Source: Actinomycetota bacterium (GTDB taxonomy: Bacteria > Actinomycetota > Thermoleophilia > Gaiellales > Gaiellaceae). Taken from it: a DNA stretch of 32,658 bases. The position numbers and the translations under genes were made by a program. Of the stretch, positions 1-6,431 are shown piece by piece; the first letter of the stretch is position 1; every line of letters begins with the position of its first letter. The notes beneath the pieces were generated by a model, which did no database searches, was not told where the DNA came from, and saw nothing but the letters and a program-made list of their open reading frames with translations. Where the stretch lies: the NCBI GenBank assembly GCA_947507735.1, contig CANNRA010000004.1:1-32658 (forward strand). Reading direction: 5' to 3'.

Positions 1-825
1 CATCGCCTGCTCGCCGGTGCTGTCGAGGCCGCTCAGCGTGTCCTCGTCGGGGGCACGCGCGGCTGCCGCTGCCGGGATGATCGCGGTCTGCTCGGCGGCG
101 GTTGAGGCGGTGTCGGCGGCGACCGTCTCGAACAGGACACAGGTGATGTTGTCCTCGCCGCCCCCGGCGTTTGCGGCGGCGATCAGGGCACGGGTGGCAG
201 CCTGCAGGTCGTCGCGGCTGTGCAGGAGGATCGCGCGCAGCTGCTCGTTGCCGACCATCGTCGTCAGGCCGTCGGAGCACAGCAGGTAGAGGTCGCCCGG
301 CTCGGAGGTAACCTCGAAGGTGTCGACCTCGACGTTGAGGTCGGTGCCGAGCGCGCGCGTGATGACAGCACGCTGCGGGTGGCCCTCCGCCTCCTCGGGC
401 GAGATCTGGCCGATGCGCACCAGCTCGGCGACCAGCGAGTGGTCGGGCGTGAGCTGCTCGATCGCGCCGCCGCGCAGCCGGTAGGCGCGCGAGTCGCCCA
501 CGTGGCCAATCTGCAGGCGGCCGTCCTTGCGGGCCAGCACCGCCGTGACGGTGGTGCCCATGCCCGAGGCGGCCGCGTCGATGCGCGAGCGCTCGTGGAT
601 GCGCCGGTTGCCCTCGAGAATCGCCTCGACCAGGTCGATCGGGCCGCCGCGGTGCACCGCCTCCTCGAGCGCCGTCGCGGCGAGCCGCGAGGCGAGCTCG
701 CCGGCCAGGGCGCCGCCCATGCCGTCGCACACCGCGAACAGCGGCGGCTCGTGGACGAACGAGTCCTCGTTGCCGCGCCGGCGACGGCCGGCGTCGCTGA
801 GCGCTGCGCTACGGCCGACGCTCAC
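1..825 (-). CDS. pstP: PP2C-family Ser/Thr protein phosphatase (partial, 3' end outside window)
   Basis: Metal-dependent protein phosphatase that would reverse phosphorylation by Ser/Thr kinases such as the one at the head of this operon. Translating from the GTG at 825 gives an open frame of 275 codons to the window edge. It has the PP2C hallmarks in order: RRRRGNEDSF (residues 14-23), FAVCDGMGGA (30-39) with Asp34 as a metal ligand, HVGDSRAYRL in the middle, LLCSDGLT, and GGGEDNITCVLF near residue 220. This covers essentially the whole catalytic domain. What follows is a Thr/Ala-rich juxtamembrane stretch. In actinobacterial PstP a single membrane helix and an extracellular tail come next, but these are not visible here. 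The GTG overlaps the FhaB stop codon (GTGA), so translation is probably coupled. The symbol rests on domain and context; family assignment is secure. Confidence 0.93.
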   Translation of the reverse strand, partial: MSVGRSAALSDAGRRRRGNEDSFVHEPPLFAVCDGMGGALAGELASRLAATALEEAVHRGGPIDLVEAILEGNRRIHERSRIDAAASGMGTTVTAVLARKDGRLQIGHVGDSRAYRLRGGAIEQLTPDHSLVAELVRIGQISPEEAEGHPQRAVITRALGTDLNVEVDTFEVTSEPGDLYLLCSDGLTTMVGNEQLRAILLHSRDDLQAATRALIAAANAGGGEDNITCVLFETVAADTASTAAEQTAIIPAAAAARAPDEDTLSGLDSTGEQAM

Positions 826-1337
826 GGCTCGAACCTGAACTCCGTCTCGCCGACGCGCACCAGGTCGCCCGGCTCCAGACGTACGGCGCCGGTCAGCAGG
901 ATGCTGTTGACGAAGGTGCCGTTGGTCGAGCCGACGTCCTCGAGCCAGACGCCGTCGGGCCGCGGATCAAGGCGCGCGTGCAGGGTCGAGGCGAACTGGT
1001 CGCCGGGCAGCACGAGGTCGTTCTCGTTGGCGCGGCCGATCGTCATCGGCACGTTGCCGATCGAGCGCAGCGAGCCGGGCTCCAGCGTCGGGCTGTCCGA
1101 GACGACGAGCTTGCCGGCCGGCAGCAGCGTCGCGTTCGCCAGCAGGCGACGCGCCTCCAGCGGCGACAGGATCATGCTCTCCTGGCCGACCCCGCCATAG
1201 CCCGGCTTCGCCTCGCGCGTGGCCGCGCGCAGGATCCGCCAGATCACCAGATAGAGCAGGACGACGAAGGCGATCTTGAGAACGAGGAGGACGCTCTCGA
1301 CCGTCGCCGAGGCGACGAGCGACGGCGTGCCGATCAC
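822..1337 (-). CDS. fhaB: FhaB-like FHA-domain membrane protein
   Basis: Phosphothreonine-binding adaptor of 171 residues with one N-terminal membrane helix (about 13-35), a short basic linker and a C-terminal FHA domain (about 97-165). The FHA signature is clear: TIGRANENDLVL, then the ASTLHARL loop, then DVGSTNGTFVN. In mycobacterial FhaB the equivalent loop reads STRHARL as I recall it, so a Leu replaces the first Arg while the phosphate-contacting Ser and His remain. Family members dock on phosphorylated kinases and penicillin-binding proteins at the division site and pole. The start is GTG and overlaps the FhaA stop (GTGA). Its own stop overlaps the PP2C start. Length matches the family (about 155 residues in mycobacteria). 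Confidence 0.9.
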   Translation of the reverse strand: MIGTPSLVASATVESVLLVLKIAFVVLLYLVIWRILRAATREAKPGYGGVGQESMILSPLEARRLLANATLLPAGKLVVSDSPTLEPGSLRSIGNVPMTIGRANENDLVLPGDQFASTLHARLDPRPDGVWLEDVGSTNGTFVNSILLTGAVRLEPGDLVRVGETEFRFEP

Positions 1338-2236
1338 CGTTCCGACCGCTCGAAGACGAGCACGGTCGAGCCGAGCTCGATCCGGTCGCCGTTCTCGAGC
1401 TTGGCGCGGGACACGCGCGTGCCGTTCACCGACGTGCCGTTGGTGGAGCCGAGGTCAACGAGCCAGTGCTCGCCGTCCTCGAGGCGCACCTCGGCGTGGC
1501 GGCGGGAGACGTTGAGGTCGGCGACAACGATGTCGCAGTCCTTGGCGCGGCCCATCGCAACTGCTGGCTTGTCCAGCGCATGGCGGCCGCTCTCGCCGAC
1601 GAGCGCTGCGCCACCCTCGTGCGCGGGCGCTGCCGCGGGCTCGGGGGCCGGCGCGGGCGGCGTGTAGAGCATCGTGTCGCTCGACGGCGCGGCGGCAGGG
1701 ACGAGCGGCACGACGAGCGGCACGACAGGCGGCACGACGAGCGGCGGCGCTGCGACCTCGGCCGGTGCAAAGCCGCCGAAGACGTCGCTCTCGCTGCTCT
1801 CCAGCTCCGGGATCGGCGGCGGCAGCACGGGCTCGGCGCCGCGGCGTGGGCGCTCGGCGGTCCGCGAGGACTGCACCATGCGGGTTGCGATCCCGAAGTG
1901 GCCGAGCGGCAGGTCCTTGTCGGTGTCGATCGTCACGGTGGGCGGCGAGAGCAGCACGTAGCCCTCGCGGCGCGCGTGCTCGGCCAGGAAGTCCTGGAGC
2001 TCCAGCACCAGCGAGTCCTCGTAGTCGGCGAACTGGGTGCGATCGCCACTGCTCAGGAAGAGGGTGAACTCGTTTGGCGCGTACGTCCGCGAGACCGAGG
2101 CCATGCGATGGTCGTCCATCTCCTTCGTCAGCTTGCGCGCCAGTTCAACCGGCTGGACATGCGTTCTGAAGGCGCGACCAAAAAGCCCCTCGAAGAGGCC
2201 CTCGATCTTCTGTTCAATAGTCCGAAGGACGCTCAT
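1334..2236 (-). CDS. fhaA: FhaA-like protein: DUF3662 plus FHA domain
   Basis: Cytoplasmic adaptor of 300 residues. Residues 1-115 form the DUF3662 domain, recognisable by HVQPVELARKL and the segment ending in GHFGIATRMV. A Pro/Val/Ala-rich linker (about 120-210) follows, then a C-terminal FHA domain with MGRAKDCDIVVADLNVSRRH and DLGSTNGTSVNG. In mycobacteria FhaA binds phosphorylated pseudokinase MviN and restrains peptidoglycan synthesis; that role is inferred here from homology. I chose the ATG at 2236 rather than the GTG one codon upstream because family members begin MxVLxxxExxLEG. It lies 20 bp after the kinase stop and overlaps fhaB by four bases, so it belongs to one operon. The linker is encoded partly by a 12-nt tandem repeat. 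Confidence 0.92.
   Translation of the reverse strand: MSVLRTIEQKIEGLFEGLFGRAFRTHVQPVELARKLTKEMDDHRMASVSRTYAPNEFTLFLSSGDRTQFADYEDSLVLELQDFLAEHARREGYVLLSPPTVTIDTDKDLPLGHFGIATRMVQSSRTAERPRRGAEPVLPPPIPELESSESDVFGGFAPAEVAAPPLVVPPVVPLVVPLVPAAAPSSDTMLYTPPAPAPEPAAAPAHEGGAALVGESGRHALDKPAVAMGRAKDCDIVVADLNVSRRHAEVRLEDGEHWLVDLGSTNGTSVNGTRVSRAKLENGDRIELGSTVLVFERSER
1700..1747 (+). repeat. 12-nt tandem repeat inside fhaA
   Basis: About four copies of a GACGAGCGGCAC unit, one with a GACAGG variant. It lies in frame within fhaA and encodes the repetitive Val/Pro/Leu part of the linker on the minus strand. Because the unit is a multiple of three, copy-number change would lengthen or shorten the linker without a frameshift. 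Confidence 0.75.
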
Positions 2237-2256
2237 CACCAGCTTCTACAGGGCAT

Positions 2257-4098
2257 TCACGAGTGTAGCTGGGGGTTTCGGCGCGGTGCCGCTGCGCGCT
2301 CGCGGAGCCTGCGCCAGGGAACGAGCGGCCCGGCAATCGTGGCGCTGACGAGGAAGGCGGAGGCGACGAGCGGCAGCGATGCGGTGCCCCGTACGGGAGC
2401 CACGGTCAGACCGGCGAGCACGAGGCCGAATCCGGTGAGCCACCGGCCGCTGCGCCCGCGCAGGAAGGGTAGGGCCGCAGCGGCCGCGGCCAGCACGACG
2501 GCCTCGGCAGCGATCGCGGGCCGGTGCTCCAGCACCTGCGCCAGCGCGCGCAGCACGGTTAGCGGCTGCAGGACGTTGTTGATGCCGAGCCCGGCGAGCG
2601 GTGCGACGCCGAACGGCAACGCGTTCCCCACCAGGCCGCAGGCGAGCACGCCCCCGAGCACGAGCGTCACGGCGAGCGCGATCCGGCGTGGCAGCGAGCG
2701 AACATGCAGCACTGCGAGCGGCACCAGGCCGAGCAGCGAGACCGCGCCAAGCACGGGCGCCAGCGCGATCAGCAGGCCCTCGGCGGGGCGGCGACGGAAG
2801 GCGAACAGCCACACGGCGGCGAACGCGGCCCAGGCAGCACCTGCACCGAAGGCGATGTTGCCGAGCGGCAGGATCGGCACGGCGAGCGCGAAGGCGAAGG
2901 CCCAGCCCGGCAGCGTCAGGCCGAGGACGGCGGCGACAAGCGCTGCGAGTGGCGCCCCGCCCGTCGGGAAGAAGGGGATCGTGGCGGCGGCCCAGCCGGC
3001 GAGCAGCGCTGCCAGCCCGGCGATCGCTAGCCGCTCGTTGGCGGGGCGCGCGAGCGTCGGGGCCGAGAGGCGAGGGGTGGCGATGACGCGGCGCGGGGCC
3101 TTGCTGCGCGGGCGCTGCGGCCGGTCGCCGCCGGAGCCGTTCCCGTCGTCGTTGCCGCCACCGCCACCGCCACCGCCAGTGCCACGGCGGCGCTTCGGCT
3201 GCTCCTTGCGACGCGGCCGGTCGGGGCGCTCACGGGTGCGCTCCGGCTTGCGGGAGCGGTTGCTCGTGGTGTGGCGTGGCGCAGCGCGCAGGGCGGCGGC
3301 GAGCGCCTCGGCGGAGGGGCGGTCGGCCGGATCGAGCGAGAGGGCGCTATCGACGAGCGAGAGCAGTTGCTTCGGCAGGTCGGGACGCTGGCCGCCGAGC
3401 GGCTCGGCGCCGATGCGAATGCCGCGCGCGGTGTCGAGCAGCGAGCCCTTCCAGAACGGGTGCTGGCCGGCGAGCGCCTCCCAGAGCAGGACGCCGATCG
3501 CCCAGATGTCGGCGGGCGGGCCGCCCTTGTGGCCGCGTAGCCGCTCCGGCGAGATGTACGCGAGCGTGCCGGGGACGTCGCCGTGGGCGGTGAGCGTCTC
3601 CTCCTCGGCCACCAGCGCGAGGCCGAAGTCGAGCAGCTTCGCGTGGATGCCGCCATGGCCCTCGGCGAGCATGATGTTCGACGGCTTGACGTCGCGGTGG
3701 ACGATGCCGGAGCCGTGGGCGTGCGCCAGCGCGTCGAGGATCTGGGCCGCGGCCTCGATTGCCTCGCCGTCGCGCAGTTGGCCGTTACGGATCGCGTCGC
3801 GCAGCGTGCCGCCGGCGATGTACTCGTAGGCGATGTAGACGTGCCCCGGGTCGCGCCCCAGGGCGTAGGCGCGCAGCACGTGGGGGTGGCGCAACTGTGC
3901 GGCGGCGCGTGCTTCGCGCTCGGCCCGCTCGCCTGCCCGTCCCTCGCGGGCGACGATCTTGAGCGCCACCTCGCGGCCGGTCGGTTCGTGCACCGCGAGC
4001 CACACCGATCCCGAGCCGCCAGAGCCGAGCGGGCGCAGGGGCCGATAGGCGCCGAGGACGAGGTTGGTGGTCGGAAGTGCTTCTGCTGCTGCGCCCAT
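2257..4098 (-). CDS. Ser/Thr protein kinase with multi-pass membrane C-terminus
   Basis: Hanks-type kinase of 613 residues, first gene of the kinase-fhaA-fhaB-PP2C operon. Catalytic elements are intact: glycine loop LGSGGSGSV (24-32), ATP-anchoring Lys47, helix-C Glu62, catalytic loop HRDVKPSN (134-141), DFG (157-159) and GTLAYISPERL (177-187). After about residue 275 comes a strongly basic, glycine-rich linker (to about 355, with eight consecutive Gly). Roughly eight hydrophobic segments follow between 357 and 592. It has no PASTA repeats, unlike PknB, and not the single-helix layout of PknA. The membrane part resembles no ligand domain I recognise. The ATG at 4098 begins just before the kinase fold; no strong ribosome-binding site stands directly before it. 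Kinase activity is very likely; what the membrane part senses is unknown. Confidence 0.93.
   Translation of the reverse strand: MGAAAEALPTTNLVLGAYRPLRPLGSGGSGSVWLAVHEPTGREVALKIVAREGRAGERAEREARAAAQLRHPHVLRAYALGRDPGHVYIAYEYIAGGTLRDAIRNGQLRDGEAIEAAAQILDALAHAHGSGIVHRDVKPSNIMLAEGHGGIHAKLLDFGLALVAEEETLTAHGDVPGTLAYISPERLRGHKGGPPADIWAIGVLLWEALAGQHPFWKGSLLDTARGIRIGAEPLGGQRPDLPKQLLSLVDSALSLDPADRPSAEALAAALRAAPRHTTSNRSRKPERTRERPDRPRRKEQPKRRRGTGGGGGGGGNDDGNGSGGDRPQRPRSKAPRRVIATPRLSAPTLARPANERLAIAGLAALLAGWAAATIPFFPTGGAPLAALVAAVLGLTLPGWAFAFALAVPILPLGNIAFGAGAAWAAFAAVWLFAFRRRPAEGLLIALAPVLGAVSLLGLVPLAVLHVRSLPRRIALAVTLVLGGVLACGLVGNALPFGVAPLAGLGINNVLQPLTVLRALAQVLEHRPAIAAEAVVLAAAAAALPFLRGRSGRWLTGFGLVLAGLTVAPVRGTASLPLVASAFLVSATIAGPLVPWRRLRERAAAPRRNPQLHS
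3154..3178 (+). repeat. 6-nt CCGCCA tandem repeat in kinase linker
   Basis: Four perfect CCGCCA units in tandem code, on the minus strand, for the polyglycine run that separates the kinase domain from the membrane segments. In-frame slippage would alter linker length only. Confidence 0.7.
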
Positions 4099-4181: not shown

Positions 4182-5330
4182 ATGAATCGCGACGACGACG
4201 ACGACATCGAGTTCGACTTCTTCGCGGAGCCCGAAACCCGCGAGGCCCAGCCGAGCGAGCGAGGCTTCCGTGGCGGTCAGGCACCCCGCGAGGGCGGGCC
4301 GCGCCGCCCGTCCGCTCCATCGACGCCGCTGCTGCGCCTGCTCGGCCTGATCGGCTTCGCGATCCTGATCGTCGTGCTGCTCATCCTCTGGGTGTCCAGC
4401 TGCGGCGGCACGAGCAAGACGTCGGTGTACCGCAGCTACATGGCGAAGGTCGGCGTCGTCGGCACGGCCTCGGCGAAGGTTGGCAACCAGCTGATGGCAG
4501 CGCTCAACACTGCTGGCATCAAGTCCAGCGATCTCGACCCGAAGGTGCACAACCTCGCGCAGCAGGAGCAGCAGCGCCTGGCGACCGTGGAGCTCGTCAA
4601 GCCCCCCAAGGAGCTCATCGAGGAGCACGCGATGCTGCTCGAGGCCTTGCAGCTGCGCGTTGCCGGCCTCCAGGGGATCGCCACCGTCTTCCACGGCAAC
4701 CCGGTTGCGAAGGATCGCACCGCCACGGCCAACAGCCTCGCGGTCGCGTCGCAGCGTCTTGTCGCCGCCGACGTCGTATGGGCCGATCTCTTCAAGGCCG
4801 CCGCCGACACCGAACTGCAGCGCCAGGCGATCGTCGGCGTCACGGTGCCGCAGTCGAACCTGCTGGCCGGCAACGATCTCGGCAGCTCGCGCACGTGGGT
4901 GCCGGTGCTGCAGCGCATCCAGGGTGCCTCGACCGGCGGCTCCACCGCCACCGCGGCAGGCCTGCACGGGATGGGCCTCGTCGCGGTCAAGGTGCTCCCG
5001 TCCGGCACGCTGCTCGCGCCCGGCACCGAGACGACGATCGTCGCCAAGACTGATCTCGGCTTCGAGGTCACGGTCCTGGACACGGGTGAGAGCCAGGAGG
5101 TGCAGGTCAACGTGACCCTCACCATCCTCCAGTCGCCGACGCCGATCGTGAAGAAGGCTGTCATCGACCAGATCAACCCGGGCGAGCAGAAGACGATCAC
5201 CTTCTCCGATCTCGGGCCGGTCCAGTTTGCCACCAAGACCTCCGTGAAGGTCGATGTCCAGCCGGTGCCCGGCGAGCAGTCGACGGCGAACAACTCGGCC
5301 GAGTTCCCGGTCATCTTCTCGCTCGGCTAG
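4182..5330 (+). CDS. Membrane-anchored protein with CARDB-like C-terminus
   Basis: Protein of 382 residues, no function recognised. The N-terminus is acidic (five consecutive Asp at residues 4-8), followed by a Pro/Arg-rich stretch and one hydrophobic segment (about 50-72) that ends in VSSCGG with Cys74. This reads as a type II anchor. The VSSC sequence resembles a lipobox, but the roughly 70-residue cytoplasmic lead makes a lipoprotein less likely. Residues 80-235 are mostly helical in appearance (many Ala, Leu, Gln, Glu). Residues 250-382 look like a beta-sandwich: FEVTVLDTGESQEVQVNVTLTI and a later alternating segment resemble CARDB adhesion-type folds. Divergent from the kinase operon and five nt upstream of a DUF4446 gene, so probably co-transcribed with it. 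A cell-wall role is conjecture. Confidence 0.85.
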   Translation: MNRDDDDDIEFDFFAEPETREAQPSERGFRGGQAPREGGPRRPSAPSTPLLRLLGLIGFAILIVVLLILWVSSCGGTSKTSVYRSYMAKVGVVGTASAKVGNQLMAALNTAGIKSSDLDPKVHNLAQQEQQRLATVELVKPPKELIEEHAMLLEALQLRVAGLQGIATVFHGNPVAKDRTATANSLAVASQRLVAADVVWADLFKAAADTELQRQAIVGVTVPQSNLLAGNDLGSSRTWVPVLQRIQGASTGGSTATAAGLHGMGLVAVKVLPSGTLLAPGTETTIVAKTDLGFEVTVLDTGESQEVQVNVTLTILQSPTPIVKKAVIDQINPGEQKTITFSDLGPVQFATKTSVKVDVQPVPGEQSTANNSAEFPVIFSLG

Positions 5331-5334
5331 GCCT

Positions 5335-5823
5335 GTGCTGGCCTTCCTCTCGTCGGGTGTCGCGGCCTGGGTCGCGGTGAGTGCTGCGGTCGCTGCTGGC
5401 GTATCGCTGGTGCTGGCTGCCTGGTTCGCCACCCGGATCCGCTCGATCCGCGCTGGCCAGAAGGTGCTGCTCGGCGGCGGCAAGGGCGACCTGATCGACT
5501 TCGCCGTGTCGCTGCAGGCGCGCATCGACGACCTGCATCGTGCCGTGGACGAGGTCGCGGCCGGCCTCTCGCGCGTCGACCGCCGTGTGGACGGCTCGCT
5601 GTCGAACGTGGCCGTGCTGCGCTACGACGCCTACGAGGACACGGGCGGCCAGCTCTCCGCGTCGGTGGCACTGCTCGACGGCGCGCGCACCGGCCTCGTG
5701 CTGACGGCGATCCAGGGCCGCGACCACGCGCGCATCTACGTCAAGAAGCTGGATCACGGCCGTGCCACGATCGCGCTCTCCCCCGAGGAGATCGAGGCGG
5801 TCGAGCGCGCAATGACGCCGTAA
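5335..5823 (+). CDS. DUF4446 family membrane protein
   Basis: Protein of 162 residues of unknown function. One N-terminal membrane helix (about 7-30) leads into a heptad-rich segment (DLIDFAVSLQARIDDLHRAV, about 50-70) likely to form a coiled coil. The conserved DUF4446 core follows: NVAVLRYDAYEDTGGQLSASVALLD, then TAIQGRDHARIYVKKL and a final LSPEEIEAVERA helix. I chose the GTG at 5335, five nt after the upstream stop, because it starts just before the hydrophobic segment and no other start is better placed. Function is unassigned in the family; the tight spacing suggests it works with, or is at least expressed with, the anchored protein upstream. Confidence 0.88.
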   Translation: MLAFLSSGVAAWVAVSAAVAAGVSLVLAAWFATRIRSIRAGQKVLLGGGKGDLIDFAVSLQARIDDLHRAVDEVAAGLSRVDRRVDGSLSNVAVLRYDAYEDTGGQLSASVALLDGARTGLVLTAIQGRDHARIYVKKLDHGRATIALSPEEIEAVERAMTP

Positions 5824-5880
5824 CCCCACCTTCACCGTTGCTGCACCGGGGCGTGACGCTGCTGCACCCGCCCCGCCCGT

Positions 5881-5886
5881 TACACT
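5881..5886 (+). promoter_or_regulatory. Putative -10 box, leaderless start (TACACT)
   Basis: TACACT ends eight nt before the GTG at 5895. Transcription starting about seven nt downstream would begin at the start codon, giving a leaderless mRNA; no ribosome-binding site is visible. Confidence 0.5.
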
Positions 5887-5894
5887 CGCGATTC

Positions 5895-6431
5895 GTGGAC
5901 CATGTGCTCGTCCTCAACGCGAGCTTCGAGCCACTCAACGTGTGCTCGGTTCGGCGTGCGCACGTTCTCTTGCACAAGCGCAAGGCTGAGCTGCTGGAGA
6001 CGCTCGAACGTCCGCTTCGCTCGGCGGCCGGCTCGCACCCGTGGCCGCTCGTGATCCGGCTGCTCGACTACGTGCGGGTGCCGCGCTCCTCCTCGCGCAA
6101 GATCTCGCGGCGGGCGCTGTTCGCCCGCGACGGCTGGCGCTGCGTCTACTGCGGGACGGCGGCGGGCCGGATGACGCTCGACCACGTGGTGCCGCGCAGC
6201 AAGGGTGGCCGGTCGGAGTGGGACAACGTCGTCACGGCGTGTGCCCCGTGCAACCTGCGCAAGGGCGACCGGCCGCTGGAGACGACCGGAATGACGATGC
6301 GCATCCCGCCGCGGCCACCGCAGCCTGTGCTGTTCATCCGCCTGGCGGCGCCGACGGTGCCGCAGAGCTGGAAGCCGTACCTCGGCGAGGGCGCGCTCGG
6401 TGCGCTCGCCGCCCAGGTCGCTGCGGCTTGA
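5895..6431 (+). CDS. HNH endonuclease family protein
   Basis: Stand-alone HNH protein of 178 residues. It opens with HVLVLNASFEPLNV, typical of a widely conserved HNH subfamily in actinobacteria and cyanobacteria. The nuclease motif lies at about 78-121: RDGWRCVYCG (Cys83, Cys86), LDHVVPRSKGG (Asp96, His97), WDNVVTACAPCN (Asn111, Cys116, Cys119, Asn120). The two CxxC pairs would bind a structural zinc. I start it at the GTG at 5895, preceded by a well-placed TACACT box, rather than at an upstream in-frame codon, because the conserved family N-terminus begins there. Neighbours do not suggest restriction or a mobile element, so a DNA repair or housekeeping role is more plausible than defence; substrate unknown. 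Confidence 0.92.
   Translation: MDHVLVLNASFEPLNVCSVRRAHVLLHKRKAELLETLERPLRSAAGSHPWPLVIRLLDYVRVPRSSSRKISRRALFARDGWRCVYCGTAAGRMTLDHVVPRSKGGRSEWDNVVTACAPCNLRKGDRPLETTGMTMRIPPRPPQPVLFIRLAAPTVPQSWKPYLGEGALGALAAQVAAA

Follow-up and report, generated by a model that had tools for sequence, protein, structure and literature searches.

A polytopic Ser/Thr kinase heads the cell-wall growth locus across Thermoleophilia and in several other families of Actinomycetota

Throughout the class Thermoleophilia and in several other families, the actinobacterial elongation/division signalling locus opens with a gene for a Ser/Thr kinase with a polytopic membrane tail, hereafter the front kinase. This locus, named after pstP and pknB, serves Actinobacteria as the central phospho-switch of wall growth, and work on it comes nearly all from mycobacteria, corynebacteria and streptomycetes. 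The stretch analysed here (the window; 32,658 nucleotides) is the start of contig C4 (CANNRA010000004.1) of a 2.16-Mb metagenome-assembled genome (MAG) of a soil bacterium of the Gaiellaceae, 94% complete and in 233 contigs. The operon itself is known; the kinase architecture at its head is conserved and unannotated. We propose, with a probability of roughly 0.55, that the front kinase is an undescribed, conserved second kinase of the elongation locus, which would be gated through a homologous polytopic tail and would phosphorylate FhaA and its neighbours.

According to PMC6554272, the pstP/pknB locus is conserved throughout Actinobacteria; in mycobacteria, the operon holds fhaA, fhaB, rodA, pbpA, pknA and pknB together with the phosphatase (PMC11898655). 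In the window, the front kinase, fhaA, fhaB and then pstP all lie on the minus strand with operon-like spacing, namely 17 nt followed by two 4-nt overlaps, and fhaA and fhaB stand upstream of pstP, as expected of this locus. Domain matches, strand and spacing thus bear out the kinase-FhaA-FhaB-PP2C operon that an earlier note on this DNA had proposed, and a chance arrangement is excluded because the gene order is conserved across dozens of genomes. The FHA domain of FhaA carries the phospho-Thr residues (GR, SxxH and NG), and the FhaB-like protein scores 92 bits against the FhaB model NF049868, under its cut-off of 125.

The remaining half of the operon was located by scanning the same assembly for PASTA repeats and for RodA; either scan matched contig C165. 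This contig encodes the C-terminal part of PstP, with its transmembrane anchor and outer domain, RodA, PbpA and a kinase with four PASTA repeats; therefore, the operon stops within the window because the contig ends, and not for a biological reason. A relative (L014, 70% identity over the kinase) has kinase, fhaA, fhaB, PP2C and rodA on a single contig. In its PP2C, residues up to 256 match the window and those from 344 on match the C165 end, and DNA alignment to this relative places the window up to position 5094 (77% identity) and C165 from 5304 on (84% identity), so that, judging from these alignments, the two contigs appear to be separated by only about 60 bp. The linkage of pstP to rodA, pbpA and the PASTA kinase, which here runs across two contigs, is found on single contigs in relatives. 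The near relatives are Gaiellaceae/Thermoleophilia MAGs, among them L031 (Gaiellaceae bacterium KatS3mg012), whose contig position coincides with that of genome G020 from the window's family.

These results settle the question, raised in the earlier note, of whether rodA, pbpA and a PASTA kinase follow beyond the window, and they speak against its implication that the PASTA kinase is missing or replaced. Loss of that kinase was accordingly rejected, and the front kinase is additional to it, not a replacement. A genome kinase scan recovered two canonical Ser/Thr kinases in the assembly, the front kinase and the PASTA kinase, both in the operon; two further matches are weak and partial, and at 94% completeness another kinase could be missing from the MAG.

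The catalytic motifs of a Ser/Thr kinase are all intact in the front kinase, and activity is predicted from them. Lys47 (ALK47), Asp136 and Asn141 (HRDVKPSN) and the DFG Asp157 are present and invariant in orthologues of the window's family, and the activation loop reads TLT...GDVPGTLAY. The catalytic residues are intact in the full-length orthologues examined, including families outside the class, some with HLD for HRD, and a Thr-x-Thr-type activation loop is kept in most class front kinases and lost in families f12, f24, f45 and f51. HLD replaces HRD in the front kinases of f24, f45, f51, f57 and f64 (e.g. L216, L219, L237, L234 and L233), and in the first three of these families the activation loop is also shortened and without the Thr pair, a combination that suggests altered regulation. 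Neither a PASTA scan nor a Pfam domain search detected PASTA repeats in the front kinase, as had been claimed of it, and since its score against the PASTA-kinase model NF033483 (201.7 bits) lies far under the cut-off of 450, it is not a PASTA-kinase equivalog. The basic polyglycine linker noted after the kinase domain is real (about residues 280-345), but it is lineage-specific and largely confined to the closest relatives of the window; in most orthologues the linker is much shorter.

The distribution of this architecture was followed in three surveys. First, within the window's family a tail profile found it in 76 of the 82 genomes sampled, nearly always in one copy, with weaker matches in other families of the class. 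Second, 40 loci anchored on FhaA_N were read in ten further families of the class. In 39 of them the gene before fhaA is a kinase with 4-8 hydrophobic segments; the 40th (L140, 10900-12269 on the minus strand, from a single-contig f5 assembly) looked tail-less, but this was rejected because the tail is encoded further on in a different frame. This disruption of the frame may be a real frameshift or a sequencing error. The polytopic front kinase thus heads the locus in all 11 class families sampled, with rare exceptions in the order <HNH <DUF4446 <CARDB-like >front kinase >FhaA >FhaB >PP2C >RodA >PbpA >PASTA kinase. Third, among 70 loci from 47 families outside the class, it occurs in 13 families (f14, f15, f17, f23, f24, f28, f29, f41, f45, f51, f57, f58 and f64) and is missing from 34. 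The claim that a polytopic non-PASTA kinase precedes fhaA, unlike in mycobacteria and streptomycetes, therefore holds well beyond the window.

Most of the tails of these kinases are related in sequence. In hhalign comparisons between family-wise tail profiles, f1 scored 94.6-99.5% against f2/f3, f5, f6, f7, f9 and f10; f10 scored 99.6% against f8, 98.6% against f11 and 93% against f12; and f9 against f29 and f29 against f23 gave 98.2% and 94.3%, respectively, whereas RodA, used as a polytopic control, never exceeded 0.5%. In addition, the f9 or f29 profiles score 38-128 bits on the tails of f14, f15, f17, f28, f41, f58 and f64. By these comparisons the tails are homologous across the front-kinase families, f24, f45, f51 and f57 excepted.

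With respect to the kinase domains, a branch separates the class front kinases, together with f23, from the PASTA kinases and the PknA-position kinases, with support of 98-100 in the Shimodaira-Hasegawa-like approximate likelihood ratio test (SH-aLRT). A tree constrained to hold all 20 front kinases as a single clade was 31 log units likelier and was not rejected (approximately unbiased test, p-AU 0.865), so that a single origin is compatible with the data. The front kinases are thus apparently orthologous and fit one clade distinct from PknA and PknB.

The tail is predicted to have 8-10 helices, with both ends inside, which makes the 'about eight' segments counted earlier a fair estimate. Two AlphaFold2 models, built from 16 and 49 sequences, reached a pLDDT of 84-86 and a pTM of 0.77-0.79. 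Basic residues cluster in alternate loops of the tail (44-48, 82-88, 111-120, 195-198 and the C-terminus) and the remaining loops are nearly uncharged, except for the 138-174 stretch, a pattern that indicates this topology, with one outer stretch of about 36 residues. The other outer turns are short, and there is no sizeable periplasmic domain. Leu53, Pro59, Asn62, Ala75, Pro108 and Leu142 of the tail are invariant in 49 sequences of the window's family, whose PxLPLGN-like motif is not conserved in other families. Across families, the tail helices hold no conserved charged residues and almost no invariant polar ones.

Searches with the membrane part by itself, as the earlier note had suggested, returned homologues class-wide and no annotated family. 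Pfam gave no family for the tail of the window even at E<=10, only scattered chance matches for the tails of 49 family members, and nothing of note for those of other families; a PDB sequence search gave no match, and Foldseek searches of the two models against the PDB gave best E values of 0.7 and 1.5, at query TM-scores no higher than about 0.25. The tail is therefore a common kinase tail of the class, and beyond it, that matches no annotated Pfam domain or PDB fold. A transporter or known sensor domain finds no support in these searches. Of the two roles suggested earlier for the membrane part, a transporter-like module is at odds with the lack of both matches and conserved transporter-like charges, and a sensor is possible if it acts through the membrane, there being no large outer domain for it to use.

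We propose the following scheme for the front kinase as a second kinase of the elongation locus. The tail would fix the kinase at the elongation complex, and gating would come from contacts inside the membrane (RodA/PbpA, MurJ or lipid-linked precursors) and not from a periplasmic ligand domain. Once active, the kinase would phosphorylate itself and its FhaA/FhaB partners, creating phospho-Thr sites for the two FHA proteins, and its phosphorylated regions and substrates would recruit FhaA and FhaB to the RodA/PbpA machine. PstP would act as the eraser that resets the switch, and the PASTA kinase would supply the periplasmic (peptidoglycan) input, such that the operon would respond to a wall input as well as to a membrane input. 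Several points weigh against this proposal. First, gene order and motifs are observed, while the gating, signal, substrates and partners of the front kinase are all inferred. Second, a plain anchor would also account for the fast divergence of the tail and the small number of its fixed residues, and the tail model is without a structural relative in Foldseek searches of the PDB. Third, the front kinases of f24, f45, f51 and f57 are polytopic with tail homology unproven, and free kinase trees put the outside front kinases apart from those of the class.

The alternative that survives best, a real possibility although on the unlikely side, is that the tail is an anchor or oligomerisation platform near RodA/PbpA which reads no signal, its position and hydrophobicity being selected and not its sequence. 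Rapid divergence across families with almost no polar residue held constant, the lack of a sizeable outer domain, and that of Pfam or PDB relatives would all be expected of such a platform. However, one transmembrane helix would do for this purpose, as in PknA and PknB, yet homologous polytopic tails are kept in at least 11 families, and Pro59, Asn62, Pro108 and Leu142 do not vary among the 49 sequences of the window's family.

A transporter or flippase-like role of the tail, for instance for lipid-linked wall precursors, with the fused kinase reporting on or controlling that activity, is improbable: the 8-10 helices, with proline breaks and an invariant Asn in the membrane part, and an operon that handles lipid II polymerisation (RodA, PbpA) would suit such a role, but Foldseek found no transporter fold, Pfam no transporter family and the alignments no charge conserved inside the helices across families, and the genome has a separate MurJ. 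More improbable still is an origin of the front kinase from a PknA that was relocated to the head of the operon and acquired a larger membrane tail. The front kinase is the second kinase of the operon, and none of the 24 front-kinase families has a kinase at the PknA position, compared with 10 of the 34 other families (Fisher p 0.003, descriptive only, as families are not independent), but it sits before fhaA, not between pbpA and pknB, and the kinase-domain grouping described above puts the PknA-position kinases with the PASTA kinases, away from the class front kinases; PknA identity is thus disfavoured. Finally, an artefact of assembly or gene calling that joined a kinase to an unrelated membrane protein, conceivable in a fragmented MAG whose window begins at a contig end, has a negligible chance and was rejected, given that many families show the same fusion, both in MAGs obtained independently and in genomes on a single contig.

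In comparison with the locus of Mycobacterium, Corynebacterium and Streptomyces (PMC6554272, PMC11898655), fhaA, fhaB, pstP, rodA, pbpA and the PASTA kinase come in the same order, and, as in mycobacteria, there are two kinases and one phosphatase; unlike there, an extra polytopic kinase precedes fhaA, no kinase takes the PknA position, and a divergent CARDB-like/DUF4446 pair adjoins. The front kinase may fill the same slot as mycobacterial PknA (PMC7164672), the second, non-PASTA Ser/Thr kinase of its operon, although PknA lies between pbpA and pknB, has one transmembrane helix (one is predicted for kinases at that position) and groups by its kinase domain with PASTA kinases. A further possible analogue, in recruiting FhaA to the membrane, is mycobacterial MviN (MurJ), a lipid II flippase whose C-terminal dead kinase fold (pseudokinase) binds FhaA (ActPs3; PMC12599244). 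Both are polytopic membrane proteins with a kinase fold tied to FhaA; in contrast, the front kinase has intact motifs, its kinase domain is N-terminal and its tail is no MurJ. The MurJ of the window's genome is a 552-residue open frame with no room for a pseudokinase, and the f35, f39 and f43 genomes have frames of 926-1260 residues, all measured from stop to stop and hence upper limits. This short MurJ, without a kinase-like domain, leads us to propose the front kinase as the membrane-embedded kinase fold of the locus. MurJ frames are about 540-580 residues long in most front-kinase genomes and 700-1260 in several genomes without one, as though a genome had either the front kinase or a kinase-like domain on MurJ, with G132, G387 and G488 as exceptions. 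It is tempting to speculate further, as a doubtful extension, that the front kinase could be an ancient second master kinase of Actinomycetota envelope growth, gated inside the membrane by lipid-linked wall precursors or elongasome contacts through a new membrane fold, and that the lineages which lost it gained PknA and, in some, an FhaA-recruiting, pseudokinase-bearing MurJ.

None of the papers found in a literature search mentions a polytopic kinase before fhaA, although subscription journals lay mostly outside that search and a prior description is possible. In a whole class and several further families, the second kinase of the wall-growth locus is a different one and carries an unannotated membrane domain, which suggests an additional, membrane-embedded input to the switch in lineages without PknA at the locus. 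Sensing of envelope growth within the membrane itself thereby becomes open to test, as does the origin of the mycobacterial two-kinase design. Moreover, a MAG with only two canonical kinases hints at a minimal system of two kinases, two FHA readers and at least one phosphatase, which could be rebuilt in a laboratory host. The features of the window are collected in Table 1.

Table 1. Features of the locus at the start of the window, with the evidence for each.
Feature	Position	Strand	Evidence or remark
Front kinase, 613 residues	4098-2257	minus	Pkinase, residues 19-266, E 3e-51
Ser/Thr kinase catalytic domain of front kinase, residues 19-266	3301..4044	minus	Pfam PF00069, E 3e-51; genome kinase scan
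Basic glycine-rich juxtamembrane linker of front kinase, residues 267-352	3043..3300	minus	Sequence and orthologue alignment; length variable
Membrane tail of front kinase, residues 353-613 and stop	2257..3042	minus	AlphaFold2, positive-inside count, 49-sequence alignment (predicted)
fhaA	1334..2239	minus	FhaA_N PF12401, E 4e-33, at 1889-2227; C-terminal FHA PF00498, E 1e-21
fhaB-like, one N-terminal transmembrane helix and FHA domain	822..1337	minus	PF00498, E 4e-16
pstP-like PP2C phosphatase, cut by contig end	1..825	minus	NF033484 Stp1/IreP, 238.6 bits, cut-off 230
Divergent gene, transmembrane and CARDB-like protein, 382 residues	4182..5330	plus	Adjoins front kinase in most of class
DUF4446 protein, conserved next neighbour	5254..5823	plus	PF14584, E 5e-31

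The two divergent genes of Table 1 form a trio with an HNH endonuclease gene (4182-6431, plus strand), found beside the front kinase in most of the class, and the CARDB-like/DUF4446 pair also lies next to it in several families outside Thermoleophilia. An extra kinase of about 500 residues with one transmembrane helix occurs just downstream, on the opposite strand, at L150, L152, L153, L158 and L160-L167 (f8, f10, f11) and at L017 and L018 (f1); those placed in the tree form their own clade (SH-aLRT 98), and none was found in the window's MAG. The assembly scan identified as PASTA carriers only the PASTA kinase, a match on contig C64 and, on contig C179 (L011, 1-2400, minus strand), a class-A penicillin-binding protein with C-terminal PASTA repeats that is cut by the contig end.

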